Assembly (NCBI RefSeq): GCF_007751715.1
Contig: NZ_CP036292.1
Coordinates: 5,959,339 to 6,023,338 of the forward strand
Origin: Rosistilla oblonga
GTDB lineage: Bacteria; Planctomycetota; Planctomycetia; Pirellulales; Pirellulaceae
Direction: 5' to 3'
Length of the DNA stretch: 64,000 nt
Made by a program: the position numbers and the translations under genes
In this document: piece after piece, positions 12,028 through 64,000 of the stretch
Numbering within the stretch: position 1 is the stretch's first letter
Layout: the number at the start of each line of letters is the position of its first letter
Notes under the pieces: generated by a model
Told to the model about the DNA's origin: nothing
Databases searched by the model: none
What the model saw: only the letters and a program-made list of their open reading frames with translations

Positions 12028-13224
<1,197 letters not shown>

Positions 13225-13285
13225 TTCAGCAAGTCGCAATCACAAAGCCAACTGGTTGACGTGTGAGCGATAAATGAAGATCATG

Positions 13286-13332
13286 CTAAGTGGCAATGCG
13301 ATGCCAAACCATCGCCGTTGCCACTTAGTTTT
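13286..13332 (+). terminator. terminator after tuf
   Basis: An 11-bp outer stem (CTAAGTGGCAA with TTGCCACTTAG) encloses a second stem GCGATG/CATCGC and is followed by TTTT. It lies about 60 nt after the tuf stop, so tuf is probably terminated before tRNA-Trp and secE. Confidence 0.8.
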
Positions 13333-13369
13333 ATGTGGACCGCTTTTCGAAGCCTCGGTCTGCATTGCT

Positions 13370-13443
13370 AGGGGAGTAGCTCAATTGGTTAGAGCACTGG
13401 TTTCCAAAACCAGGGGTTGCGAGTTCGAGTCCCGCCTCCCCTG
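13370..13443 (+). tRNA. tRNA-Trp (CCA)
   Basis: 74-nt cloverleaf. The acceptor AGGGGAG pairs with CTCCCCT, and the anticodon loop TTCCAAA gives CCA. The T-arm is GAGTTCGAGTC and the discriminator is G. Its place between tuf and secE is shared with many bacteria. Confidence 0.96.
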
Positions 13444-13632
13444 CTAGCATATGCTTTAAAGGTAATTGACTGCAATCGCGACCGGCCCCGTGCCGCAAAC
13501 GCGACGACTCGCAGCGACCTTGGATGCAAGTTTTCGAACTTGACCTGTCCATTGAATGGTAGCGCGGTGGCAGTTGTGGTCACAGCCGAAAAAGAAATAC
13601 ATTGAAACACGATTCGTCGGGAGTTCGCCCGG

Positions 13633-14079
13633 ATGTCCACGGAAGTAGCCGGAAATTCAACAGCCCCCTTGTTGCCTGAACTGTTCAAAGGTCAGGTTTA
13701 CAAGCGGAACCAAGGGCGTCTGGTCCGCCAGATGACCTGCTTGGCGTTTTGGGTGATCGTCGCCCTAGGCTGCAAAAGCCTTTACGATTCCCTGCAAGGC
13801 TTCTTCGACGAAAGCTCGGCGGCCCTCGAATTGGCGATCCCAGCGATCACCTGCTTGGTCGGCTTCTGGATCTCGTTCCGCTTGGTCAACTGGCCTCGCT
13901 TTGCCGACTTCCTGATCGCTGTCGAAGCGGAGATGAACAAGGTCTCATGGCCCAGCAAGGCCGAATTGATCCGCGCTTCGATCGTCGTGATCTTCACGAT
14001 CTTTTTCCTAGCGATGTCGCTGTTTACATTCGACATCATCTGGCGGGCAATTTTCGAGTTTATCGGCGTTGCCGCTTAA
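13633..14079 (+). CDS. secE: preprotein translocase subunit SecE
   Basis: 148 residues. Small essential subunit that clamps SecY in the inner membrane. Three hydrophobic segments are seen (about 35-52, 72-92 and 118-143). The conserved SecE signature EAEMNKVSWPSKAELIRASIVV precedes the last helix. The three-helix layout is like the E. coli protein rather than the short one-helix type. Start ATG at 13633 has GGGAG about 10 nt upstream. It lies upstream of nusG in the standard order. Confidence 0.93.
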   Translation: MSTEVAGNSTAPLLPELFKGQVYKRNQGRLVRQMTCLAFWVIVALGCKSLYDSLQGFFDESSAALELAIPAITCLVGFWISFRLVNWPRFADFLIAVEAEMNKVSWPSKAELIRASIVVIFTIFFLAMSLFTFDIIWRAIFEFIGVAA

Positions 14080-14100
14080 CGAAATTGCAAACATAGATAG

Positions 14101-14126
14101 AGCCCCAGGCGCAACAGCCTGAGGCT
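14101..14126 (+). promoter_or_regulatory. hairpin between secE and nusG
   Basis: AGCCCCAGGC and GCCTGAGGCT form a stem with one mismatch around GCAACA, just upstream of the nusG start. There is no T-run, so it may be an mRNA processing or attenuation element rather than a terminator. Confidence 0.4.
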
Positions 14127-14147
14127 ATTAAGAAAGGCTGAACTGCG

Positions 14148-14963
14148 GTGGACGGCGAAGACAAACGCGAACAGGACGAACAACTTGAGGCTGCTGCGGC
14201 ATCCGAGCAGGCAGAGGATTCGTCCGACGCGGCGGAAAAGTCCGACGTCAGCGTAACCGAAGAACTCGCATCGGGCGAAGCTATCGGCGGTTCGAAAGCT
14301 GCCGCCCCTCGCGAAGAAGAAGCTGTCGATCCCATTCTCGAAGACGAATTCGAGGCTCCCACGCGGCGGATCAAAAAGCCCGAGGTCGACGTCGAAGACG
14401 AGATTCTCGATCCCGATGAAGCGCCCAAAGAGTGGTACATCCTAAAGGTTGCGTTCAACCGCGAAGAAACCGTTCGCGACGCGATCATCAAACAGATCAA
14501 CATGTCGGGCATGGAAGGCTATTTCGGCGAAGTCTTGGTGCCAACCGAAGACATCGTTGAATTCAACCGCAGCGGCAAACGCAAGATCGTCAAACGGAAG
14601 CTCTATCCGGGCTACCTGATGATCTACATGCACGTCAACGACGACACCTGGTTCCTGATTCGCGACACCACCGGCGTCAGCGACTTCACAGGAACCGCTG
14701 GCAAGCCAGCTCCGATGGATCCCGCAGAAGTCGAACGCGTGATCACATCGAATGAAGACGGTGAAGATGGCGAGAAGCAGCTCAAGACGTCGATACCGTT
14801 TAAAGTCGGCGAGCGAGTTCGCGTCAAGGAAGGTAACTTCCAAAATCAGGAAGGCGAAGTTGAGAAATTGGATGAGGCGAACGGTCGCATCTCAGTTAAT
14901 ATCAATATTTTTGGCCGATCCGTGCCAGTAGAGCTTGACCATTGGCAGGTCGAACCGCTCTAG
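14148..14963 (+). CDS. nusG: transcription antitermination factor NusG with acidic N-terminal extension
   Basis: 271 residues, about 90 more than E. coli NusG. It binds RNA polymerase and couples it to Rho or the ribosome. The NGN domain starts near residue 95 with KEWYILKVAFNREETV and includes KRKLYPGYLMIYM. The KOW domain follows (FKVGERVRVKEGNFQNQEGEVE) and the protein ends in HWQVEPL. Residues 1-94 are highly acidic and Ala/Ser-rich, probably disordered. The start is GTG at 14148. Position between secE and rplK is canonical. Confidence 0.94.
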   Translation: MDGEDKREQDEQLEAAAASEQAEDSSDAAEKSDVSVTEELASGEAIGGSKAAAPREEEAVDPILEDEFEAPTRRIKKPEVDVEDEILDPDEAPKEWYILKVAFNREETVRDAIIKQINMSGMEGYFGEVLVPTEDIVEFNRSGKRKIVKRKLYPGYLMIYMHVNDDTWFLIRDTTGVSDFTGTAGKPAPMDPAEVERVITSNEDGEDGEKQLKTSIPFKVGERVRVKEGNFQNQEGEVEKLDEANGRISVNINIFGRSVPVELDHWQVEPL

Positions 14964-14983
14964 TATTCGCTCGCTGATTTGTG

Positions 14984-15034
14984 TACGCCGCCAACCGGAG
15001 CGTTCGAGCTCCGTGTTAGACCCCAGGCGGCGTA
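14984..15034 (+). promoter_or_regulatory. structured leader upstream of rplK
   Basis: TACGCCGCC (14984-14992) pairs with GGCGGCGTA (15026-15034) and encloses an inner stem CGGAGC/GCTCCG. It lies in the 170-nt gap before rplK. In many bacteria L1 represses this operon through a leader structure; whether this is the L1 site is not shown. Confidence 0.45.
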
Positions 15035-15135
15035 GGTCAGATCCCCAAGAAAGACATTCCTGGCGGCAGGTTGAAGTCGGTGACGTAAACCGAGTACAGC
15101 CGCGATGGACCGCCTCGAGAAAGTAGACATTAAAG

Positions 15136-15561
15136 ATGGCAAAGCAACTTGTTGGCCAGGCTAAGTTCCAAGTGCCTGGTGGACAAGCGACTCCCGCACC
15201 TCCCGTGGGTACGTCGCTTGGTAAGTTTGGTGTAAACCTTGGGCAGTTCGTTCAAGCGTTTAATGATCGCACCAAGGAGTACGCAGGTACCCCGATCCCC
15301 GTGATCGTTTCTGTATACAACGATCGCAGCTTCGACTTTGTCACAAAGAGCCCGCCCGCGGCCTCTTTGCTGAAACAGACAGCTGGAATCGCTAAAGGTT
15401 CTGGTGTGCCTCATAAAGACAAGGTCGCATCCGTCTCTCGCGCTCAATGCCAAGAGATCGCCGAAAAGAAGATGGCCGATCTCAACGCACGCGATATCGA
15501 ACATGCGATCCGCATGATCGAAGGGACTGCGCGAAGCATGGGAATCGACGTCGTAGGTTAA
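15136..15561 (+). CDS. rplK: 50S ribosomal protein L11
   Basis: 141 residues, the normal length. Binds 23S rRNA at the GTPase-associated centre. The N-terminal domain has the conserved [13 protein letters not shown] segment, modified from the usual PVGPALGQ form. The rRNA-binding C-terminal domain has [14 protein letters not shown] and [19 protein letters not shown]. It starts the L11-L1 pair. Confidence 0.97.
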
Positions 15562-15679
15562 GTCGCGACATTGTGACCCCGGCATTCTGCTTTGCGGTGT
15601 TCCGCGAAGTGCCGATTGCCAGCGGTCGCGAATCTTTCACGCGACCATGAACCATGGACACTCAAGGAATAAACCAAAT

Positions 15680-16357
15680 ATGCCACAGCAATCAAAACGT
15701 TATCGTGCGATGGCCGCCAAAGCGTCGGCGGAACCAAAGCCACTCAGCGAGGCTGTTGTCTCGCTGAAGGAATTCAATACAACGAAGTTCGACCAAACCG
15801 TCGAAATTCACATGCGGCTCGGAATCGACCCGAACCAAGCCGATCAGATCATCCGCGGTAGCTTGGTCCTGCCTCACGGCATCGGCCGAACTCAACGCGT
15901 CGTCGTGTTCGCAAAAGGCGAAGCGGCTGAAGCTGCCAAAGCAGCTGGTGCCGATGAAGTTGGCCAAGAGGATTTGGCTAAGCGAATTAAAGATGGTTGG
16001 ACCGACTTCGACGTCTGCATCGCGACTCCTGACATGATGGGTGTCGTGGGACCTCTGGGCCGTGTCCTGGGTCCTCGCGGTTTGATGCCTGCACCACGTG
16101 CCGGAACCGTCACTCCCGATGCTGGCAAGGTAGTCGCTGAATACAAAGCGGGTAAAGTCGAGTTCCGCAACGACAAGGGTGGCAACGTCCACGCGGTTGT
16201 TGGCAAGTTGAGCTTCGACGCCGAAAAGCTGTCCGAAAACATTCAGGCGTTCATCGATCTGGTTGTGGGAATGAAGCCACAATCGGTCAAAGGGACCTAT
16301 CTGAAAGGTATTGCGATCGCCGCCACGATGAGCCCTAGCGTTCGCGTCGCTGGTTAG
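15680..16357 (+). CDS. rplA: 50S ribosomal protein L1
   Basis: 225 residues. Forms the L1 stalk and usually autoregulates the L11-L1 operon. Recognisable segments are [56 protein letters not shown] and [16 protein letters not shown]. Start chosen at ATG 15680 (MPQQSKRY) with AAGGA upstream; an in-frame ATG at 15647 lacks homologous sequence. Confidence 0.97.
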
Positions 16358-16479
16358 TCCGCAATCGACACACGATTGGTCTTCCAGAGCGTAGGGCTTT
16401 GGATGCGTCAAATATAAAATTCGCAATCCGGCTTGCGACGCCGCTTCGGTGGTGTTCAGGCTGCAAGTGAGACAGAAAT

Positions 16480-17004
16480 ATGAGTAAGTTCGTCAAAGAA
16501 TTAGTAACTCGCGACATCAAGAATCGTCTTGATGGTGTCGAGGACGCAGTGATCGTAAGTACGGTTGGGATGGACGCCAACACGACGTGCGAGCTTCGCG
16601 CGGAACTGAGGCAGAAAGAGATCACCATGTTGGTGGTTAAAAACTCCTTGGCGCGAAAAGCAACCGAAGGAACAACGCTTAGTCCGATGTTCGAAGGTGC
16701 CGGCGGTTCGCTGGCGGTCTGCTTCGGTGGCAGCGACTTCATCTCGCTCGTGAAGGAAGTTGTCCGTCTGGACAAGGACAGCGAGAAGTTCGGAAAGTTC
16801 GTTGCCGCTGGCGGCGTGATGGACGGCGAAGCGTTGGACCCCGATGGGCTCAAAGCAGTCAGCAAGTGGCCGAGTCGCGAAGAGCAGATCTCGATGCTGG
16901 TTGGCCAGATCCTCGGCCCAGGTGCAAACCTGTCCGCCGCTTTGCTTGGCCCTGGCAAGACGCTCAACGGCCAAATCAAGAAGATTTCCGAAGAGGAAGA
17001 GTAG
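16480..17004 (+). CDS. rplJ: 50S ribosomal protein L10
   Basis: 174 residues. Anchors the L7/L12 stalk dimers to the ribosome. The N-terminal rRNA-binding domain includes LRAELRQKEITMLVVKNSLARKA, and the C-terminal helix that binds L7/L12 follows. A 122-nt leader precedes it; in other bacteria L10 binds its own leader, but I could not assign that structure here. Confidence 0.96.
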   Translation: MSKFVKELVTRDIKNRLDGVEDAVIVSTVGMDANTTCELRAELRQKEITMLVVKNSLARKATEGTTLSPMFEGAGGSLAVCFGGSDFISLVKEVVRLDKDSEKFGKFVAAGGVMDGEALDPDGLKAVSKWPSREEQISMLVGQILGPGANLSAALLGPGKTLNGQIKKISEEEE

Positions 17005-17231
17005 TCGTATTGCGACGGCCTCCGACGAGGCTTTCGCGGTTTGGTCCGGGATGCCATCAACGCGATCCCGCAGGAAAGTAACCCAGCCACCCACCGGGTG
17101 TCTGTTTTAAATAACCCTTACGTTGTGTACCTCACCCGTCGCGAGGCGGTGTTGTGGGAGGTTGAAAAGGCGGGCATTTGATGGTGCTCGTCTCACAATT
17201 CATCCGCCTTTTTGAATAGGAAAGAATACCC

Positions 17232-17639
17232 ATGTCGGAAGACACCGCAGTAGCTGAAGTCAGCGCCGAAACTAAAGAAATGGGCGATAAGATCGCTCAA
17301 CTGACCCTCAAGCAAGCCAAAGAATTGAGCGATTACCTGAAGGACGAGCATGGCATCGAGCCAGCTTCCGGTGGTGGCGCTGTCATGATGGCTGCTCCAA
17401 CCGACGGTCCTGCTGCTGAAGCAGAAAAGACTGAATTCGACGTCGTTCTGACCGGATTTGGCGACAAGAAGTTGAACGTCGTTAAGGTTGTTAAGAACCT
17501 GACCGGCGCTTCGCTGATGGACGCCAAGAAGATGGTCGAGAGCTGCCCTGCAACTCTGAAAGAAGCCGTCTCGAAGGAAGATGCCGAGAAGGTCAAGGCA
17601 GAAGTCGAAGAAGCTGGCGGAAGCGTCGAACTGAAATAG
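17232..17639 (+). CDS. rplL: 50S ribosomal protein L7/L12
   Basis: 135 residues. Stalk protein that recruits translation factors. It has an N-terminal dimerisation helix (LTLKQAKELSDYLKDE), an Ala/Gly-rich hinge, and the C-terminal factor-binding domain (EFDVVLTGFGDKKLNVVKVV ... LTGASLMDAKKMVE). Preceded by a 227-nt gap after rplJ and followed at 17708 by a strong terminator instead of rpoB. Confidence 0.97.
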   Translation: MSEDTAVAEVSAETKEMGDKIAQLTLKQAKELSDYLKDEHGIEPASGGGAVMMAAPTDGPAAEAEKTEFDVVLTGFGDKKLNVVKVVKNLTGASLMDAKKMVESCPATLKEAVSKEDAEKVKAEVEEAGGSVELK

Positions 17640-18139: not shown

Positions 18140-19357
18140 CTACACCATCCATTCCACCTGCTTTGGCAGAGCGTTGGTCGATGCATTGGGACGGCGGACC
18201 AAGCGTCGCAGCTTGAGTACCGTCCGCAGGTACCAACGTGGGAAGACGGTAACCGACATCCAAACCCAAGTCATGCAGATCAATGCCGCTGCCAATGGGC
18301 GACGGTACGTCATATGGCTGAAGAGCGAGCCCTGGCCGACGCGCGGCATCTCTGCCGGTGCGATCGCCAATCCGTAGGACTCCGCGATCTGTTTCGCATC
18401 GACGACGTTTACAATCGGGACGCCTTGGGTGAGCATTCGCGAGGCGACACAGTCGGGGACCTCTTGATCGCTTGGAGTCGATCGATGCACGCCAGCGCTG
18501 AAACAGGCGTTGCCAGCGGTTCCGCCGATCGAAGCCGATCCGCCACCAACATTGATGTAGGCGGCATACGGTTGCTCGGAGCCAGCGTTTTGATAGATCT
18601 CCATCCGCTGCCCCACCGAATCTTCGATGTCGGCGACGTTCAGCACGGGGACGCCGTTGCGGGTCGCAGCCAATTCCAGCATCTCACGCGTTGGTTCGGT
18701 CATCCCGGCCGCGCGGTCGAACAGGCCTCCCAACGAAGCGCTCTGCGCGGCGAAGGACTCTGGAAAAATCCCGGCATCGCGGAGCTGGCGTTCCATGTCG
18801 ACCCACATCATGTCGGGGGAGTTTGCGCCGTATTGGCTCGCTGCCACCGACAGTACGATTGTCGGCTTCAGCTGCAGCGTTTCGGCGGCGGCATAGACCG
18901 CGATGTTCAGCGCCGGCCAAGATCCGCTCGCTCCGATCGCGATCGAATCCCCTGGCTCGACGCCCGCCTGCTCCAACCAACGGACGACCACTGCCGCGAG
19001 GTTCGGGTTAATCGAGGTCTGCTTCGATTCCAAAGAACCGAGCTTGCTGGTGACCATCGACATCGATGGGCCGATCAGGTGGGATCCGCTGGGGTCCAGT
19101 TTGGGTAATGCGCGATGCCCCTGAGCGATCCGCAGATCTTTGATGTGGCGGAGCGCTTCGTCCGCCTTTTCGGCAGCGGCTGTCAATTGAGGCGACGGGG
19201 CGGCAACTTGCTGAGGCCACCATTCGACGGCGAACAAACCGGCCAACGAGGCGAGCATGCCGGCCCACAGCCATCGCCGCGAGATCTTCTTGGGACGCCA
19301 ATACATCACCTGGAACGGTTGCGCAGGATTCATTTTGAGGAACGATTGCCGATTCAT
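18140..19357 (-). CDS. poly-gamma-glutamate system protein (PgsW-type)
   Basis: 405 residues. N-terminal transmembrane helix at about 30-46 (RRWLWAGMLASLAGLFAVEW), a large extracytoplasmic domain with ADEALRHIKDLRIAQGHR and IGPSMSMVTSKLGSLESKQT, a glycine-rich INVGGGSASIGGTAGN segment, and a second hydrophobic helix near 355-375. This matches the poly-gamma-glutamate system protein found next to PgsB/PgsC in planctomycetes and some others. Its ATG overlaps the pgsC stop by 4 bp (ATGA), so it is translationally coupled. Last gene of the operon; its exact role in polymer synthesis or export is not established. Confidence 0.8.
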   Translation of the reverse strand: MNRQSFLKMNPAQPFQVMYWRPKKISRRWLWAGMLASLAGLFAVEWWPQQVAAPSPQLTAAAEKADEALRHIKDLRIAQGHRALPKLDPSGSHLIGPSMSMVTSKLGSLESKQTSINPNLAAVVVRWLEQAGVEPGDSIAIGASGSWPALNIAVYAAAETLQLKPTIVLSVAASQYGANSPDMMWVDMERQLRDAGIFPESFAAQSASLGGLFDRAAGMTEPTREMLELAATRNGVPVLNVADIEDSVGQRMEIYQNAGSEQPYAAYINVGGGSASIGGTAGNACFSAGVHRSTPSDQEVPDCVASRMLTQGVPIVNVVDAKQIAESYGLAIAPAEMPRVGQGSLFSHMTYRRPLAAALICMTWVWMSVTVFPRWYLRTVLKLRRLVRRPNASTNALPKQVEWMV

Positions 19358-51853: not shown

Positions 51854-52116
51854 AGTCCGCCCCGAGAAATCGCAGTTTTTTGCGGTCTTAAATCACGCGG
51901 CCGGGGTTTCACTGGTAATCTTCGCGGTTTCCTCAATGATGCGCCTCGTGTTGCGTCGCCGTGCGGCAAGATTTCAAGTTCGTTGCTACCGCCGGAACCT
52001 CCGCGGTTTATACTTACTCTTGAAGGGGCGCGGTATCTTTGCGGTTCGCGCCGCCTCTTGAATCGATCCCACCTTTCCGTTTGGCTGGCGACCTTTGTCA
52101 GCGGAGACTCTCCCCT

Positions 52117-53940
52117 ATGAAGCCCCTCGTACAACCTGCCAAAAACCGCCGCGGCGGGATGCTCACCTACCTCTCGATTTTGATCGTGTTGGCCGCTGTG
52201 GCGGGCGGCGCTTATTGGTACTTCAAAATTCGGCCCGCTAAGAGCGTCACCACCGGCGAATTGATCACCGATGTTGTCCGCCGCGGTGCGTTTGACCACA
52301 TCGTGCTCGAACAGGGCGAGATCGAGAGCAGCAAGAACATCGAACTCGAATGCGAAGTCGAGAGTCGCGGTGGTGGCGGCACGGCGATCCTATGGGTAAT
52401 CGACGAAGGAGCTCGCGTGAAAGCGGGCGACAAGCTGGTCGAACTCGATTCGTCGCAGCTGGAACAGGACCTCAAAACGCAGCGGATCGTGCTGCTTGGG
52501 GCCGAAGCGAATGTGACCAATGCGGCGGCACTGCTGAAACAGGCAGAGATCTCGCGGCAAGAGTACCTCGAGGGAACGTTTAAGACCGAAGAGAAAGCGA
52601 TCCTCAGCGAATTAGCCGTCGCCGAACAGGAGCTCCGCAAAGCGCAATTGGCACTCGCTAGCACCCAGCGACTGGTTGCCAAAGGGCTGGTCAAATCGCT
52701 GCAAATGGAAGCCGATCAGTTCGCCGTCGCCAATACGAAAAACCAACTGGAAGCCGCTCAGGGCCGGCTGAAGGTTTTGCAGGAACTGACCAAACAGAAG
52801 TTCCTGGTTCAATATGACAGCGACATCGAATCGGCTCGCGCGGTCCTCGAAGCCAACAAGAGCACGCTCAGTGAAGAGCAGGACAAATACGCCGAGATGG
52901 AAGACCAGATCAAAGCCTGCGTGATCTATGCCCCCAGCGACGGCGTCGTGGTTCACGCCAACCGCTTCAGCAGCCGCGGTGGCAACGCGGAGTTCGTCGT
53001 CGAAGCGGGAGCGACAGTTCGCGAGCGTCAAGCGATCATCCGCTTGCCCGATCCGACGCAGATGCAGGTCAAAGCCAAGATCAATGAATCCCGGATCGCC
53101 TTGGTTTCCGAAGGCATGCCGTGCAAGATCAGCGTCTCGTCGCTCAATGGCGTCGAGCTGTTGGGTCAGGTGACGAAGGTCAACCGCTACGCCGAACCGA
53201 GCAGCTTTTTCACGTCGTCGATCAAGGAATACGCCTGTTCGATCGCGATCATCGATCCGCCCGAAAGCATCCGAACCGGGATGACCGCCGAGGTGCAGAT
53301 CTTTGTCCAACAGAAACCCGACGCGCTGCAGATCCCGATCCAAGGCGTTTACGAGCACAGCCAACAAACGTTTGCGTTGGTCCGCAGCCCCGAGGGCAAA
53401 TTCGAAACTCGGAAGATCGAAGTCGACGCGACCAACGATAAACTGGCTGCGATCGCATCGGGATTGGAAGAAGGGGACGAGATCGTCCTGAACCTGCGTC
53501 AGCACTTACACTTGTTAGACGATCTGCCATCGGGATCGACCGATACCAACACCGGATTGGCTGGCTTGATCGAAGGCAAGACCGGCGTCTCGGTCACCAA
53601 TGGTGCTCCGCCCAGCACGCCTCAACCTGTCGATGGCCCCAGCCCCGCGCGAGCCTCCGCTCCGCCCGGCCGCGAAGGTCCTCGTGGTCCCGGCGGCCCT
53701 GGTGGTCCCGGTGCGGGAGGCCCACCTTCGCCGGCGGCGATCGTGAAACGGATCTTCGACGAATCGGACACCGACAAAGACGGTTCGCTTTCGGAAGCGG
53801 AGATCGCCAAGATGGAAGACCGCCGTCAATCGATGGCTAAAGCGGCCGACGCCGACAGCGACGGCAAAGTCACCCGGGCCGAATTGACCAGCGCGATGGC
53901 TGCTCGCTTCGCCGAATCCAACAACGGCGCGGGGCGATAA
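52117..53940 (+). CDS. MacA-like membrane fusion protein with C-terminal EF-hands
   Basis: 607 residues. N-terminal transmembrane anchor (17-37), biotinyl-lipoyl and beta-barrel segments, and a long coiled coil (about 150-270). The barrel/PLD region is well formed (CVIYAPSDGVVVHANRF, VRERQAIIRLPDPTQMQVKAKINES). A Gly/Pro-rich linker ends in two EF-hand loops near 548-595 (DTDKDGSLSEAE and DADSDGKVTRAE), which is unusual for this family. It should link the inner-membrane transporter to the outer membrane. Start ATG 52117 with GGAG upstream. First gene of the exporter operon. Confidence 0.88.
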   Translation: MKPLVQPAKNRRGGMLTYLSILIVLAAVAGGAYWYFKIRPAKSVTTGELITDVVRRGAFDHIVLEQGEIESSKNIELECEVESRGGGGTAILWVIDEGARVKAGDKLVELDSSQLEQDLKTQRIVLLGAEANVTNAAALLKQAEISRQEYLEGTFKTEEKAILSELAVAEQELRKAQLALASTQRLVAKGLVKSLQMEADQFAVANTKNQLEAAQGRLKVLQELTKQKFLVQYDSDIESARAVLEANKSTLSEEQDKYAEMEDQIKACVIYAPSDGVVVHANRFSSRGGNAEFVVEAGATVRERQAIIRLPDPTQMQVKAKINESRIALVSEGMPCKISVSSLNGVELLGQVTKVNRYAEPSSFFTSSIKEYACSIAIIDPPESIRTGMTAEVQIFVQQKPDALQIPIQGVYEHSQQTFALVRSPEGKFETRKIEVDATNDKLAAIASGLEEGDEIVLNLRQHLHLLDDLPSGSTDTNTGLAGLIEGKTGVSVTNGAPPSTPQPVDGPSPARASAPPGREGPRGPGGPGGPGAGGPPSPAAIVKRIFDESDTDKDGSLSEAEIAKMEDRRQSMAKAADADSDGKVTRAELTSAMAARFAESNNGAGR

Positions 53941-56796: not shown

Positions 56797-58458
56797 ATGC
56801 ACGAAGACTATCGCGATCAAGCTGTCAAAGAACTGCGCGACCACCTGCGTTTTGCGCCTCGCAGCAAAAAGCTGGAGCAGACCGCGCGGGCTGAAAAGCT
56901 GTTATCGGAAATTGAAACGAACAAGGAGTATTCGTTTGACTACCTCTGCTTTCGCATCACCGATTACCGCCCCGAGCAACCCTCGCGTCGACTAGTTCAC
57001 GGCAAAGATGTCCGCCACGACCTGCGTCTGTTCGTCGAAGATGTCTCAGACGCCGCCGACGTTAACGCCGACGAAGCGTCCGAACCGGTTCACACCGTCG
57101 ACGATCTCAGCAAGATGTTTAACGTCTCGACCAAGACGATTAGCCGTTGGCGCGATCAGGGTCTGGTCAGTCGTCGATTTGTCTTCGAGGGTCGCAAACG
57201 CGTCGGCTTTCTGCACAGCAGCGTCGAGCACTTCGTGGCTCGGAACAAGGACCGCGTCAAACGCGGCGAGCGGTTCAGCCAACTGAGCGAAGACGAGAAG
57301 GGCGAGATGATCGAACGCGCACGTCAGATGGCGACGCGCGGCACCAGCCTGTCGGAAGTCACTCGCCGCCTATCGGCGCGAATGAGCCGCAGTGCTGAAA
57401 CGATCCGCTACACCCTGAAGAACTACGATGCCGAGAATCCTCAACTGGCGATCTTCCCGAACCATCGCGGTGCACTAACCGAAGATGACAAGCGGGCGAT
57501 CTTCCAATTGGCTCGTCGCGGCACCACGGTCCCTCAACTGTGCAAGCGATACGGTCGCACACGCAGCAGCATCCAACGAATCCTTGTCGACATGCGTGCC
57601 GCTCGGATCATGGAACTGCCGCTGGACTATATGTTCAACGAGGACTTCGAGAACGCCAAACTGGAACCCGAGATCTTGGGCGAGATGCCTGAACCGGAGA
57701 AGGCGCCGCGAAAGCTGCGTGTTCCCGCCGGGCTGCCCCCCTACCTCGCCAGCTTGTACGACGTGCCACTGTTGGATCGCGAGCAGGAATATTACCTGTT
57801 CCGCAAGATGAACTACCTCAAGCACAAAGCGAACAAGCTCCGCGAGCAACTGGTTCCGGGCAACGCCAAGGCGTCGCTGATGGACGAGATCGAAGCCCTT
57901 TACGAACAAGCGGTGCAGACCAAAAACAAGATCGTTCAATCGAACCTTCGACTCGTCGTTTCGATCGCGAAACGGCACGTTGGATCGACCGACGACTTCT
58001 TTGGTCTGGTCAGCGACGGCAATATGTCGTTGATCCGCGCCGTCGAGAAGTTCGATTACGCTCGTGGCAACAAGTTCAGCACGTACGCCAGCTGGTCGAT
58101 CATGAAGAACTTCGCCCGCACGATTCCGGACGAATTCAAGCACCGCGATCGCTTCCGCACCACCGGTGAGGAACCGTTCCTGGCCGCTCAAGATGAACGC
58201 AAAGATCCGATCGCCGAAGAATCGGCACATCAACGTCGCCAACGTCAGGTCAATCGAATCCTGAATCGCTTGGACGACCGCGAACAACGGATCATCAGCG
58301 CTCGCTTCGGCTTGGGACGTCGCAACGAACCGCAGACTTTGAAAGAGGTCGGCGAGGAGCTGGGCGTGACGAAGGAGCGGATTCGTCAGATCGAAGCCCG
58401 CGCGTTGTCGAAGCTACGCGAAGCGGCAAACGCTGAAAAGATCGAGATCGATATCTAA
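56797..58458 (+). CDS. sigma-70 factor with N-terminal helix-turn-helix array
   Basis: 553 residues. C-terminal half is a sigma-70 factor: region 2 at about 375-445 (SNLRLVVSIAKRHV, VSDGNMSLIRAVEKFDYARGNKFSTYASWSIMKNFART) and region 4 at about 485-545 (LDDREQRIISARFGL, TLKEVGEELGVTKERIRQIEARALSKLR). The N-terminal half is not that of ordinary RpoD. A MerR/excisionase-like HTH lies at 98-150 (HTVDDLSKMFNVSTKTISRW), and at 225-265 is another HTH-like block (LARRGTTVPQLCKRYGRTRSSIQRIL). ATG 56797 is preferred, with GGGGA upstream. Probably a group 2 or 3 sigma factor; a housekeeping role is not excluded. Confidence 0.9.
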   Translation: MHEDYRDQAVKELRDHLRFAPRSKKLEQTARAEKLLSEIETNKEYSFDYLCFRITDYRPEQPSRRLVHGKDVRHDLRLFVEDVSDAADVNADEASEPVHTVDDLSKMFNVSTKTISRWRDQGLVSRRFVFEGRKRVGFLHSSVEHFVARNKDRVKRGERFSQLSEDEKGEMIERARQMATRGTSLSEVTRRLSARMSRSAETIRYTLKNYDAENPQLAIFPNHRGALTEDDKRAIFQLARRGTTVPQLCKRYGRTRSSIQRILVDMRAARIMELPLDYMFNEDFENAKLEPEILGEMPEPEKAPRKLRVPAGLPPYLASLYDVPLLDREQEYYLFRKMNYLKHKANKLREQLVPGNAKASLMDEIEALYEQAVQTKNKIVQSNLRLVVSIAKRHVGSTDDFFGLVSDGNMSLIRAVEKFDYARGNKFSTYASWSIMKNFARTIPDEFKHRDRFRTTGEEPFLAAQDERKDPIAEESAHQRRQRQVNRILNRLDDREQRIISARFGLGRRNEPQTLKEVGEELGVTKERIRQIEARALSKLREAANAEKIEIDI

Positions 58459-59335: not shown

Positions 59336-59651
59336 CGTCGTTACTCTAAAGTGGGGATAACCACCAAAACGGATCATCGAACGGAGTGTTGATGGACGGA
59401 CCTTCAAAGATCATCGGCAGCGACATCCGGCGTCGCTAGCGTTATTGCTACTGTCGATAGGCTCGACATAATCGGCAAACCCAAGCGGGCCCGCGGGTTA
59501 AGCGCCCCTGCGGGGGGGAAAGTTGCCTGTTTGTCCTGGGAAAACGCCCGGCCATTCGCGTGCGGCAACTACGATAAGCGGTTATTCTGAACGGTCCGGA
59601 TACCCGTGCGTTCGTTCAATTCAATGGCCGCTGAAGAGGTACAGGTCGTCG
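59336..59651. other. divergent intergenic region, no gene seen
   Basis: Between the Cys-rich protein gene and the giant surface protein; should hold both promoters. No repeat or RNA recognised. Confidence 0.4.
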
Positions 59652-62600
59652 ATGCGATTGTTACTAGTCCTGCAAAGGTTGTCCCAAGCGAACGCTTGGG
59701 CACGCCAGCTGTTGCGAGCGCGCCGTCCGCTGACCGCGCGGCCGCCGCTGCCGGTGCGGTTGCGTCGCGCAGCCCCCTTAACGGTGGGACGCCTCGAGAA
59801 ACGAATCGTCTTGGACGCCAGCGGTGTGCTGTCGGCGATGGGGGAATTGGTGATCACCAGCGATGCTGCCGCCGCCAACGAGACGGTGACGATCGACACC
59901 AATACCGATGGCGAACTGCAAATCACCGAGCTGGGCTCCCCGCTGGAGATTGTCGACGAACTGGGAGCACCAGTCACGTCGCTCGCGGGTGTCACTTCGA
60001 TCGATGTCTCTCTGGGCGAGGGACAGGATCTGTTGGTCGTCGATTTCAGCAACGCACCGCTCGCTTCGGCGATCCCAAACATCAGCTACCACGGCGGGGC
60101 GGCGAGCGATCCCAGCGGAGCGCCGACGGATCGCTTGAGCGTGATCGGCGGCGGAACTCAGTCGGCGATCTACGCACTCGACACCCTGCTGCCAGCCGAT
60201 GGTTCGCTGCAAGTCGGCGATCCGTCGCTGGCAACGACAACGATCGCTTTCGATGGCCTGCAACCGATCGAAATCACCGGCATGGCTTCGACGCTGCTGC
60301 AGACCAACGACGCCTCGGGCGGCTCATCGACAATCGAGATCTCGGGTGAGTTTGATCTTGTTGGCGGCGGGACCGATGCAGACCTGAACGTTCACGACGG
60401 CGCCGTCCTCTCGGGAACCGGAACCGTTCAAGCGGGTGACCTGACCGCCAACGTGAACCTTCAATCGGGCAGCACTCTGTCGCCAGGCAACAGCCCGGGG
60501 ATCTTGGCGGTCGCCGATTTGAACTTCGCCGACAACACAACCTTCGACGTCGAGATCGACGACCACGATTCCGCCGATCCGCTGACCACACCGACCGGCG
60601 GCGTCGCCGGGATCGATTACGATCAGATGCAGGTTCAAGGTTCGGTGACGGTTGGCACCGGTGTTGTGCTGGATCTCGAAGACTTGGGATCGACCGAAGC
60701 GAATCCTCGCGACGTCTATACGATCATCGACAACGATGGCTCCGATGCCATCGTCGGTCGGTTTGTCGACACGTCGAACGTCGTGTTGGAAAACGGCGAT
60801 ACGGTGACCGCCGCGGGAGGCCTTCAGTACCGCATCGACTACAACGGTGGCGACGGCAACGACGTTGTGTTGACCGGAATTCCAACGTCGCGGTCCGAGG
60901 TGTTTGTTTCCAACAGCTTCACTCAGACGCCGGGAACGTTGATAGCCGACGTCGACTTCAATACCGACGGCAACCAACCGGGGCTGTACGGAATCGATGC
61001 CTTCGGGACGCTTGCCGAAGCGATCGCAAACGTCGATTCGGGCGGAACGGTTTACGTCGACGCGGGGACGTTTGCCCATTCCGGAACACTGCTGATCGAT
61101 CGATCGGTGACGATCGAAGGCCAAGGCATGAACCAAACGGAGATCCGCAAAGCGGGGGCTCCGGTCGGCATCGATGACGAAGCGATCCGGATCACCGCCG
61201 ATAACGTCACGCTCCGCGGCATGCAGTTGGGATGGGTCGACTTTCTATCCAACGACGGTCAAGGCAACGTGGTTGTGACGCACGCTGACCACACGACGAT
61301 CGATCGAGTTCAATTTGGCGAAACGTTGGGTGGCGATCCTTCAAATGACGAAGGCTATCACAGCGCGATCGTCTTCGAAAACGCAGACGATCTGGTCGTC
61401 TCCGATTCCAACTTTGCTGCACGTTGGGCATCCGCCGCGATCCGCGACGGAAGTGGCGGCAGCGGCGAACGACTGCTGATCACGGGGAACCAATTCAGCG
61501 AAGACCATCTCCACGGCGGAGGCCCGATTTCGATCGGCAACTCGCCGGGAACACCCGGGGCGACGTTCAGCGGCACGATCGCGTTCAACTATTTCGCCAA
61601 CGGCATCGATCCCACCGACACTCCCATCGCGGGCGACCAGTACAGCACCGTCGCGATTGCCGATCGCGTCGTCGGCGTCGATGGCTTGACGATTTCGCAC
61701 AACACATTCTACTGGCACGACGCCAGCCTGCCCGCCGAAAGCGTTGGCGTCTCGATCGATCCGGCGCTCCCTGGCGCCGACCGGATTTCGATCCAAGACA
61801 ACATCTTCGACGGCTTTGCATCGGGCGACGCGGCGGCGGTCCAGAGCAGCGGCGTGATCACGCCGGTCGATGCGGTTGTGACCAACAACGTATTCTTCGG
61901 AAACGACATCGATTCGAACCAACCGCTGGACGCATCAAATCGGACGGGCGCGGATGCCGATCCGTTCTTTGGCGGAGAACAGGTCGGATTTGCCGGATCG
62001 ACGCTAGCCGACTTCTTCGCCCTGCGGTACGGTTCATCGGCAGCTTACCAATCGACTCAATTTCAAGCCGACATCGCGACCGCAACTCCACACATCGGAG
62101 CCAATCAAGGCGATCCCACGCCGGTTGGCACCGAAGACATATTGATCGCGGGAACCGACCAGAACGACTTTTTGTTGGTCACGTTCGATGGCGGCGGATC
62201 GGGAACGTTTGTATTGACAACCGGTATCGGCACGGCCATTGAAACCACGCTTGGCCCCGTCGTCTTCAGCGACATCACCTCGCTGACCTTCAACAGCTAC
62301 GGCGGTGACGACGTCTTGAAGATCGTTCAACCCGACGGCGGCAGCATTGACGTCAGCGGTGGGATCTTCTTTAACGCGGGTTCGCAAACGCTCGACGGCG
62401 ACGCTCTGATTCTCGAATCCGGACCGGCACAGACGACGATCGACAGCGTGCACTACTTCTTCGCAGACGAAGGAATCGCAGGGCATGTCGGTTCGATCGC
62501 GATCACCGACGCCAGCCACAACGGCGGACTCGGTGGTACGACCACGATCCACTACGACGGGCTGGAACCGATCTACGACAGTCTGAACGTCGACTATCGC

Positions 62601-64000
62601 AGCTTCACTTTCAACTCCACTGCAGCCATCGAAACGATCACGTTGTCCAGCCCCGGCGATTCGGCAGATCCGATGCTGCCGCCGCTAGACAATAAGATCG
62701 GTTCCGAATTCGGTGGCGTTCCGCTCAGCGAAGTTGTCCATTTCAACAACCCCAACGTCTCGATGACGATCAACGGTGGCGACGGCGACCAAACGATCAA
62801 CATCGATTCGCTGGATGCCGATTACCGCGCAGCGCTAACGATCAACGGCGACGATGGCGCCGCGGACGTCGTCAACTTCAATAGCTCGCTGGGCGCGTTG
62901 TTGCTGGGATCGGGAAGCGTCACTGGCACCCTAACGGTTACCGCCGAAACAATCGCCATCCACGACGGTGTCAGCATCGACACCAGCGGTGGCGACACCG
63001 ATGGCGATGTCGCATTCGACGCTATCGCGGGCATCACGATGCACGACACGTCGACGCTCGCCGTGGGAACTGCTGATGTTCGCATGAGCGCCCAAGGAGA
63101 CATTGCGATCAGCCGAATCGTGTCGGCGGAAACCGCCGCGATCACCACAACCGACGGGCGGATCGTCGACAATCGCAGCTCCGACGAAGCCGCCAACATT
63201 ACAGCGACATCGACCGCGCTGCGATCCGCAACGGGAATCGGCTCGGGAACCGCTGCCGACGACGCGGATCTCGATCTCGATGTTTCCAACCTCGCCGCTG
63301 TTACCAACGCGGGCGATATTCATCTTCAAAATGCCAAAGAGCTAACCGTCACGACAGTCGACGGATTGTCGGGGATTGCGATTATCGATCCCTTGAACAA
63401 CAACGCGTCAGGAACCATCACAATCCGCACCGCTGGGGCATTTCAAGTCGCGGTGGGCAATGGAATCCTCAACAGCGATGGCGGCGATATCACTCTGGCC
63501 GCCGAAGGAAATACGGTCGACAGCGACCTCTCTATCGCTGCCGCGGTTACCGCGTCGGGCGGTTCGGGAAACATTCACCTGCTGGCTGGCGATTCGATCG
63601 CGGTGGCGGCCGTTGCGGTTACAGCGACTCAGGCCGGCGCGATCCTGTTGAGTTCGGGGACCGATTTCAATAACGGCAGCCCGCAGGTCGGCAGCGTTGC
63701 GGGACAGATCGCATTGACCAACGCCGCCCGCGTACAGTCCGATGCCGGACACATCTCTCTGCTCTCCGCCGATTCGATCGGTTTGGGAATCGACGTCCAG
63801 GTGCAGACATCCGGCTCGGGAACGATCGATCTCTATTCGACCGGCGGCGCGATCGCGATGGATACGACCGCGATTCTGCAATCGACCGATGGCGACATTC
63901 GAGTTTCCGCTCACGGCGACTTCACGATCGGCGATATCGTTGCCTCGGCTGCCACTGTTTCACTGACCAGCGCCACAGGATCGATCCTCGACGCCGACGC
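59652..64000 (+). CDS. giant beta-solenoid surface protein, 5' part only
   Basis: At least 1,449 residues with no stop before the window edge. The N-terminus is basic and Leu-rich and ends in LEKRIVLDA (48-56), a LEPR-XLL-like motif that planctomycetes use on very large surface proteins. From about residue 60 come strand-rich repeats (ETVTIDTNTDGELQ, GTGTVQAGDLTANVNLQSG). A right-handed beta-helix region spans about 456-765 (GGTVYVDAGTFAHSGTLLID, NHTVTIEGQ-like turns, ISHNTFYW). Filamentous-haemagglutinin-like repeats follow to the window edge (NSDGGDITLAAEGN, GSGNIHLLAGDSIAV). Start ATG 59652; the frame is open upstream of it. Expected outside the cell as an adhesin or structural protein. 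C-terminus not seen. Confidence 0.82.
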   Translation, partial: MRLLLVLQRLSQANAWARQLLRARRPLTARPPLPVRLRRAAPLTVGRLEKRIVLDASGVLSAMGELVITSDAAAANETVTIDTNTDGELQITELGSPLEIVDELGAPVTSLAGVTSIDVSLGEGQDLLVVDFSNAPLASAIPNISYHGGAASDPSGAPTDRLSVIGGGTQSAIYALDTLLPADGSLQVGDPSLATTTIAFDGLQPIEITGMASTLLQTNDASGGSSTIEISGEFDLVGGGTDADLNVHDGAVLSGTGTVQAGDLTANVNLQSGSTLSPGNSPGILAVADLNFADNTTFDVEIDDHDSADPLTTPTGGVAGIDYDQMQVQGSVTVGTGVVLDLEDLGSTEANPRDVYTIIDNDGSDAIVGRFVDTSNVVLENGDTVTAAGGLQYRIDYNGGDGNDVVLTGIPTSRSEVFVSNSFTQTPGTLIADVDFNTDGNQPGLYGIDAFGTLAEAIANVDSGGTVYVDAGTFAHSGTLLIDRSVTIEGQGMNQTEIRKAGAPVGIDDEAIRITADNVTLRGMQLGWVDFLSNDGQGNVVVTHADHTTIDRVQFGETLGGDPSNDEGYHSAIVFENADDLVVSDSNFAARWASAAIRDGSGGSGERLLITGNQFSEDHLHGGGPISIGNSPGTPGATFSGTIAFNYFANGIDPTDTPIAGDQYSTVAIADRVVGVDGLTISHNTFYWHDASLPAESVGVSIDPALPGADRISIQDNIFDGFASGDAAAVQSSGVITPVDAVVTNNVFFGNDIDSNQPLDASNRTGADADPFFGGEQVGFAGSTLADFFALRYGSSAAYQSTQFQADIATATPHIGANQGDPTPVGTEDILIAGTDQNDFLLVTFDGGGSGTFVLTTGIGTAIETTLGPVVFSDITSLTFNSYGGDDVLKIVQPDGGSIDVSGGIFFNAGSQTLDGDALILESGPAQTTIDSVHYFFADEGIAGHVGSIAITDASHNGGLGGTTTIHYDGLEPIYDSLNVDYRSFTFNSTAAIETITLSSPGDSADPMLPPLDNKIGSEFGGVPLSEVVHFNNPNVSMTINGGDGDQTINIDSLDADYRAALTINGDDGAADVVNFNSSLGALLLGSGSVTGTLTVTAETIAIHDGVSIDTSGGDTDGDVAFDAIAGITMHDTSTLAVGTADVRMSAQGDIAISRIVSAETAAITTTDGRIVDNRSSDEAANITATSTALRSATGIGSGTAADDADLDLDVSNLAAVTNAGDIHLQNAKELTVTTVDGLSGIAIIDPLNNNASGTITIRTAGAFQVAVGNGILNSDGGDITLAAEGNTVDSDLSIAAAVTASGGSGNIHLLAGDSIAVAAVAVTATQAGAILLSSGTDFNNGSPQVGSVAGQIALTNAARVQSDAGHISLLSADSIGLGIDVQVQTSGSGTIDLYSTGGAIAMDTTAILQSTDGDIRVSAHGDFTIGDIVASAATVSLTSATGSILDAD

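Follow-up and report, generated by a model that had tools for sequence, protein, structure and literature searches.

A planctomycete sigma-70-family protein with a predicted helix-turn-helix array and no region 3

Main finding

The 64-kb window (the whole stretch of DNA that was analysed) encodes a 553-residue sigma-70-family protein, here called P0001, in which three helix-turn-helix (HTH) domains precede a sigma core that comprises regions 1.2, 2 and 4 and lacks region 3. We estimate a probability of about 60% that it is a planctomycete alternative sigma factor whose built-in DNA-binding array restricts or strengthens its promoter choice. Extra DNA recognition is normally left by sigma factors to separate activators. 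An earlier note on this DNA had proposed a sigma factor with added HTH modules at 56797-58458, which is borne out by Pfam matches above the cut-offs for regions 2 and 4 and for HTH families. The loss of region 3, the retention of region 1.2, a third HTH and the existence of array-less phage relatives did not feature in that note. The architecture of the gene and its product is as follows:

56797..58458, + strand: complete coding region of P0001, a sigma-70-family protein of 553 aa (ATG at 56797, stop codon at 58456-58458)
56818..57057, + strand: N-terminal helical domain, residues 8-87 (AlphaFold2 model; conserved in three relatives)
57088..57243, + strand: HTH1, residues 98-149, winged, MerR/BldC-like (Pfam MerR_1 and HTH_17; BldC chains; model)
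57289..57435, + strand: HTH2, residues 165-213, three-helix, homeodomain-like (AlphaFold2 model; profile matches under cut-off)
57481..57612, + strand: HTH3, residues 229-272, three-helix, homeodomain-like (Pfam HTH_23 and HTH_28; model)
57616..57732, + strand: block ahead of region 1.2, residues 274-312 (alignment; also in the phage proteins)
57733..57846, + strand: region 1.2 and the next helix, residues 313-350, with the signature FRKMNY at 335-340 (alignments)
57913..58149, + strand: region 2 (core binding, -10 reading, melting), residues 373-451 (Pfam, alignment)
58150..58227, + strand: short acidic linker replacing region 3, residues 452-477 (low model confidence at 445-469)
58228..58437, + strand: region 4 (-35 reading), residues 478-547 (Pfam, alignment)

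A sigma core without region 3

P0001 belongs to the sigma-70 family by the presence of both region 2 and region 4. In Pfam, Sigma70_r2 matches residues 379-437 (5.2e-14; 52.2 bits versus a cut-off of 24) and Sigma70_r4 matches residues 489-542 (7.7e-19; 67.4 bits versus 24.1). The NCBIfam superfamily model TIGR02937 scores 103.9 bits (cut-off 42.9); among the matches listed (25 of 58), no equivalog or other NCBIfam model reaches its own cut-off, and the RpoD equivalog models fall far below theirs. A phmmer search against the PDB, with E-values down to 6e-37, aligns residues 313-447 with regions 1.2 and 2 of SigA/HrdB and residues 478-547 with their region 4. In all features tested P0001 resembles a sigma-70-family factor, and sigma activity is predicted. 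A core profile search of the 64-kb window found no second sigma factor.

About 312 residues precede region 1.2, and in this part Pfam recognises none of the sigma regions, region 1.1 included. The sequence from residue 313 aligns with region 1.2 of RpoD and RpoS and also with the part of SigA/HrdB that precedes region 2. In the structure model, residues 315-322 form the first helix of region 1.2. The claim that some 300 residues replace region 1 thus holds for region 1.1, which is missing, but not for region 1.2, which is kept. Region 3 has no Pfam match in P0001 and appears as a gap in the alignments, at a place where residues are present in all 10 viral-contig comparison rows and in E. coli RpoD, RpoS, RpoH and FliA.

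RpoD recognises the upstream edge of the -10 element through Q437/T440 and W433/W434, and the -35 element through R584/R588. In region 2 of P0001, Q406, W434, Q437 and T440 of RpoD have become S406, S434, K437 and A440, and Y430 and W433 are retained. Most of these changes are shared by the 13 region-3-less rows of the alignment, which comprise the four cellular array-bearing proteins and nine of 16 phage proteins described below. Position 406 is S in 13/13 family rows (Q or E in 15/15 others), position 434 is S, A or V in 13/13 (W in 13/15 others) and position 437 is K or N in 13/13 (Q in 12/15 others), with Y430 and W433 retained throughout (13/13). In region 4, T525, K526, E527 and R530 of P0001 stand at T583, R584, E585 and R588 of RpoD; R584 is replaced by K in every family row (13/13), and E585 and R588 are retained in all 13.

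Structure model and the HTH array

A first AlphaFold2 run on four sequences yielded a mean pLDDT of 71.2, with region 2 under 50 and poorly placed. The second run, on 23 sequences (four planctomycete proteins, eight phage proteins and 11 other viral-contig sigma proteins), reached a mean pLDDT of 85.2; only residues 1-7 and 445-469 fall below 50 (segments of three or more), and at a pTM of 0.50 the placing of the domains relative to each other should not be taken as reliable. Structure prediction had been proposed in the earlier note as a check on the HTHs, and the model does contain them: three HTHs (98-149, 165-213 and 229-272) stand behind a helical domain of about 80 residues (8-87). They are followed by helices at 282-294, region 1.2 (315-350), region 2 (359-451), a disordered linker and region 4 (471-547). 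With the whole chain as query, Foldseek retrieves sigma factors from the PDB, at low TM-scores (0.14-0.22 on the query), and for the most part sigma factors among viral models.

HTH1 is a winged HTH with a MerR-type sequence, as judged from its score, its strand-helix-helix-strand-strand-helix topology in the model and its match to chain 6ama. MerR_1 scores 22.6 bits on residues 100-125 (curated cut-off 21.6), and HTH_17 scores 26.6 bits on residues 100-150, slightly under its cut-off of 27; in the three relatives MerR_1 also stays under the cut-off (19.6, 18.4 and 21.0 bits). The nearest solved chains in a profile search are 6ama (E 0.0041) and 6amk (E 0.0071), the latter of which we take to be BldC of Streptomyces. 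The MerR-like HTH that had been read from the sequence at the outset is therefore recovered. According to passages of PMC5859096, 6AMA is BldC, and Lys26 and Arg30 make its base contacts. With an ungapped alignment and the numbering shifted by 3 (the chain has 71 residues, the BldC protein 68), the probable counterparts in P0001 are K113 and R117, which are invariant in 4/4 planctomycete proteins.

HTH2 is defined by the model together with profile matches under cut-off, such as a weak one to HTH_Tnp_Tc3_1 (16.3 bits versus 21.1), and by its similarity to HTH3 in a pairwise profile comparison. For HTH3, both HTH_23 (34.6 bits versus a curated cut-off of 24.6; best stretch 227-263) and HTH_28 (33.3 bits versus 25; best stretch 232-268) score well. 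Weak profile matches link residues 226-269 to the PAI subdomain of Sleeping Beauty (E 0.11 and 0.12) and residues 178-264 to chain 2lvs (E 0.073). Chance matches are ruled out, since HTH_23, HTH_28 and MerR_1 exceed their curated Pfam cut-offs and the AlphaFold2 model shows the HTHs as well. The HTH blocks noticed earlier are thus real, but they number three instead of two. A fourth HTH at residues 36-92 was rejected at pairwise profile probabilities of just 0.05-0.27%, and residues 1-92 have no Pfam match better than E 0.07.

We also considered that HTH2 and HTH3 might be displaced copies of region 4. Sigma70_r4 does match the third HTH of one relative (L001; 26.6 bits versus a cut-off of 24.1), where HTH_38 scores far better (44.7), and its matches in the array of P0001 and the two other relatives are weak or missing. 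The pairwise profile probabilities (42% for HTH2 with region 4, 45% for HTH2 with HTH3 and 47% for HTH1 with HTH3) suggest no preference for region 4, and the idea was provisionally set aside.

Across the four planctomycete proteins, 9/13 positions are invariant in the predicted recognition segment of HTH1, 9/15 in the last helix of HTH2, likewise its predicted recognition segment, and 5/16 in the last helix of HTH3, which is the least conserved HTH overall (6/44). The corresponding numbers are 19/80 for the N-terminal domain, 42/79 for region 2 and 26/70 for region 4. All three HTHs are basic, with net charges of +5 (HTH1), +1 (HTH2) and +7 (HTH3).

Relatives in cells and gene neighbourhood

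A pattern scan of genomes, which finds close relatives only, matched 36 stretches. Three of these encode a relative, and all three lie in metagenome-assembled genomes (MAGs) of Planctomycetota. Over the full length, identity to P0001 is 69% for L002 (Planctomycetaceae), 63% for L001 (Planctomycetota) and 44% for L003 (Gemmataceae). The ATG at 56797 aligns with the starts of L001 and L002, which read MH-x-x-YR. The array and regions 1.2, 2 and 4 are present, and region 3 is absent, in 4/4 planctomycete proteins (three from MAGs).

The genes around the sigma gene follow a different order in the window, where a MacB-type transporter lies upstream, than in the relatives. In two of them a divergent gene stands upstream of the sigma gene (L002:5653-7089 and L003:5828-7192, both on the - strand; 23% identity, E 5e-13). 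It has no Pfam match and was found neither in the window nor in L001, a 4-kb contig, and on these grounds it was rejected as a candidate partner gene. A comparison of the four upstream regions brought up no conserved motif or common operator, just 11-14-base matches (E about 0.6).

Elsewhere in the window, 52039-53940 encodes a membrane-fusion protein of the HlyD type whose C-terminus carries an EF-hand pair (residues 569-620); an ABC ATPase and the MacB-type permease follow. An open reading frame on the + strand (59523-63998) has at least 1492 codons and runs off the end of the window. At 12028-17639, tuf, nusG, rplK, rplJ and rplL occur in their usual order, with a tRNA-Trp after tuf. After rplL there is no long + strand ORF fit for rpoB; the long ORF that comes next (18140-19357, - strand) has no Pfam match.

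Array-less relatives in phages

Two scans of IMG/VR, covering the best 80 of 158 and the best 80 of at least 491 relatives and sharing contigs, brought up region-3-less sigma proteins on viral contigs of 43.5 to 533 kb. At least 32 of the 160 loci carry at least 16 distinct proteins of this type, 10 of them (23 loci) with the strict motif F[RKQ]KMN[YF] and six further ones (nine loci) with variant motifs:

Phage proteins: L004, L007, L010-L012, L014, L015, L017, L018, L090, L091, L106, L108, L122, L129 and L132

These 16 proteins measure 303-341 residues from stop to stop and share with P0001 just the part from about residue 265 onward. They have the block that precedes region 1.2, a region 1.2 ending in F-[RK]-[KQ]-x-N and a distance of 94-108 residues from the region 2 motif to the region 4 motif, compared to 101 in P0001. 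Among the other distinct ORFs in the 160 loci, 85 have a gap of at least 125 residues and 23 have no region 4 motif; four ORFs with a gap of 66 and the WW pair of ordinary sigma factors were left uncounted, their gap being judged by eye to reflect a chance motif. The array itself was found in none of the viral or plasmid collections searched. A profile of the N-terminal part, run against six-frame translations of all 160 viral loci, gave no match with an E-value of 1 or lower, a pattern scan of the viral collection for the array returned 29 stretches with none confirmed, and in a search for array-bearing homologues none of 350 matching plasmid records and none of 56 matching phage records covers 80% of the query.

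In L004 the sigma gene is flanked by genes for two helicases, one DnaB-like and one of SNF2 type, with a primase gene nearby (Pfam). The fraction of neighbours matching PHROGs is 3/9 for L004, 2/3 for L011, 2/2 for L017 and 0/5 for L007, so the viral origin of L007 rests on the call of IMG/VR. The sigma protein in the L004 replication module (L004:5896-6867) has 46-47% identity to P0001 and is as close to it as the Gemmataceae relative. By eye, the stretch ahead of its region 1.2 resembles what is left of the last HTH3 helix; if so, the gene would have been captured from a host and have lost the array. Near the sigma genes of L011 and L017, phage proteins with WGR and PARP (ADP-ribosyltransferase) domains are encoded (L011:10865-12556 and L017:8585-10165).

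Classification and phylogeny

According to parts of PMC4598750, Groups 1-3 of the four-group scheme have or usually have region 3 (Group 3 sigma factors "usually" comprise regions 2, 3 and 4), and extracytoplasmic function (ECF) sigma factors (Group 4) are without the first helix of region 1.2. P0001 has no region 3, which Groups 1 and 2 possess, no region 1.1, which marks Group 1, and only two of the three regions usual in Group 3. It shares the absence of regions 1.1 and 3 with Group 4, but the first helix of region 1.2, missing there, is present (residues 313-350 align). With region 1.2 present and region 3 absent, P0001 fits no group, and its best reading is an alternative sigma factor that would fall outside Groups 1-4 by definition. 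No sigma factor with an HTH array was found in searches of open-licence papers.

The tree was calculated from regions 1.2, 2 and 4 (171 columns, 27 rows), leaving out E. coli RpoE. The 13 region-3-less rows fall on one side of a branch with 100/100 support, separate from the 14 rows with region 3, and the long branches of RpoH, FliA and L080 lie outside the region-3-less clade. The branch to the RpoD-like rows has a length of 1.28. The four cellular rows were not recovered as one clade, although a single clade is not rejected (p-AU 0.279).

Proposed mechanism and alternative explanations

In the main reading, that of a sigma factor with built-in DNA-binding modules, regions 1.2, 2 and 4 would bind core RNA polymerase. 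The promoter would consist of a usual -35 element and a -10 element differing from TATAAT at its upstream edge, the reading of position -12 being altered through the changed region 2.4 residues (W434, Q437 and T440). Region 3 reads the extended -10 element (in the relevant section of PMC4598750), and with this region missing P0001 would therefore not read it. The three tandem HTHs ahead of region 1.2 would bind an additional sequence adjacent to the promoter, and these contacts may restrict or strengthen promoter usage in place of those lost with region 3. One chain would then do the job of an activator and a sigma factor elsewhere. We infer sigma activity, DNA binding by the array, the position of its site, a regulon and a role other than housekeeping.

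A one-protein activator plus sigma factor had been suggested from the outset, with the array bound upstream of the core promoter. The predicted DNA-binding modules agree with the BldC match of HTH1 and the conserved recognition segments; as to the site, sigma geometry favours the front or discriminator side of the promoter over the upstream side. We think that contact at the discriminator or downstream side is likelier than upstream contact, although the linker of about 40 residues (273-312) would allow either. A more specific version, which we offer tentatively, has the HTHs occupy an operator, all three in a fixed head-to-tail order, so that they tether the holoenzyme and make up for the region 3 contacts. 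Promoter choice would then depend on a bipartite site of operator and modified promoter that one chain reads, and large planctomycete phages would carry the operator-independent core to turn the host RNA polymerase to their own promoters.

The array could instead be regulatory within the protein, folding back on regions 1.2/2 or 4 and keeping free sigma inactive, like region 1.1 in Group 1, until a signal, DNA or a partner releases it; DNA binding would then be secondary or lost. Such self-inhibition would suit an array that occupies the place of region 1.1, an N-terminal domain (8-87) without a known DNA-binding match and the lack of a recognised anti-sigma-like neighbour among the flanking genes scanned. 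Yet each HTH is basic, unlike region 1.1, which is acidic, and the recognition-helix segments, including both residues mapped to BldC contacts, are among the most conserved of the array, for which a pure inhibitor has no need. N-terminal extensions of planctomycete ECFs are discussed as regulatory in a section of a review (PMC8103513), which lends this explanation some further weight; on balance we consider it rather unlikely. The similarity of HTH1 to BldC and the conserved recognition segments lead us to prefer a sigma factor that brings along DNA-binding modules.

The core itself bears on two other explanations. In one, P0001 is an additional RpoD-like sigma with a housekeeping role in planctomycetes ('SigA_2'), and the array is an ornament specific to the lineage. 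This would explain why region 1.2 is retained and why the -35-reading helix resembles that of RpoD so closely. It appears improbable given the missing region 3, the -10 residues changed in 13/13 family rows, the branch of 1.28 from the RpoD-like rows and the scores of the RpoD equivalog models far below cut-off (among the 25 of 58 matches listed). An ECF sigma factor with an N-terminal extension would likewise lack region 3 and join region 2 to region 4 by a short linker, and parts of PMC8103513 describe both this arrangement for ECFs and such extensions in planctomycetes. We nevertheless hold this identity to be very improbable: P0001 has the first helix of region 1.2, which ECFs miss (as far as PMC4598750 covers them), and RpoD/SigA-type models and chains give much the better scores on its regions 2 and 4.

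An HTH array fused to a region-3-less sigma core would sit outside the four-group scheme, and such a family would directly test if region 3 is replaceable by tethered DNA contacts. Natural 'array-less' versions for comparison, with the core and the changed -10 residues, are available in the phage branch, which also suggests a route by which phages may redirect transcription in a little-studied phylum, the host being presumed.

Comparison with known systems

Similarity to the MZA defence system is confined to the sigma regions. MzaA is the best PADLOC match to P0001, on region 2 (376-446), and in NCBIfam the score is 150.3 bits versus a cut-off of 800 for a full-length match; with just this similarity and weak HTH matches in PADLOC, an identity as a defence system was rejected. 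The phage proteins share the core, the block ahead of region 1.2, the missing region 3 and the changed W434 and Q437, and they differ from P0001 by having no HTH array. HTH1 resembles the winged HTHs of BldC and MerR-like proteins in sequence and in the two residues mapped to base contacts, although BldC is a stand-alone protein of 68 residues, whereas HTH1 is one module of a sigma factor.

Like P0001, ECF sigma factors have no regions 1.1 and 3 and a short linker between regions 2 and 4. N-terminal extensions of planctomycete ECFs, as reported in part of PMC8103513, are comparable in that the extension may act as a built-in control; P0001 differs by its complete region 1.2, its RpoD-type regions 2 and 4 and an extension that is an HTH array. 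With the Group 1/2 sigma factors (RpoD, SigA, HrdB and RpoS), it has in common regions 1.2, 2 and 4 in the same order and recognisable core-binding, melting and -35-reading segments, but it is without regions 1.1 and 3, its -10 residues are changed and it carries the N-terminal HTH array.
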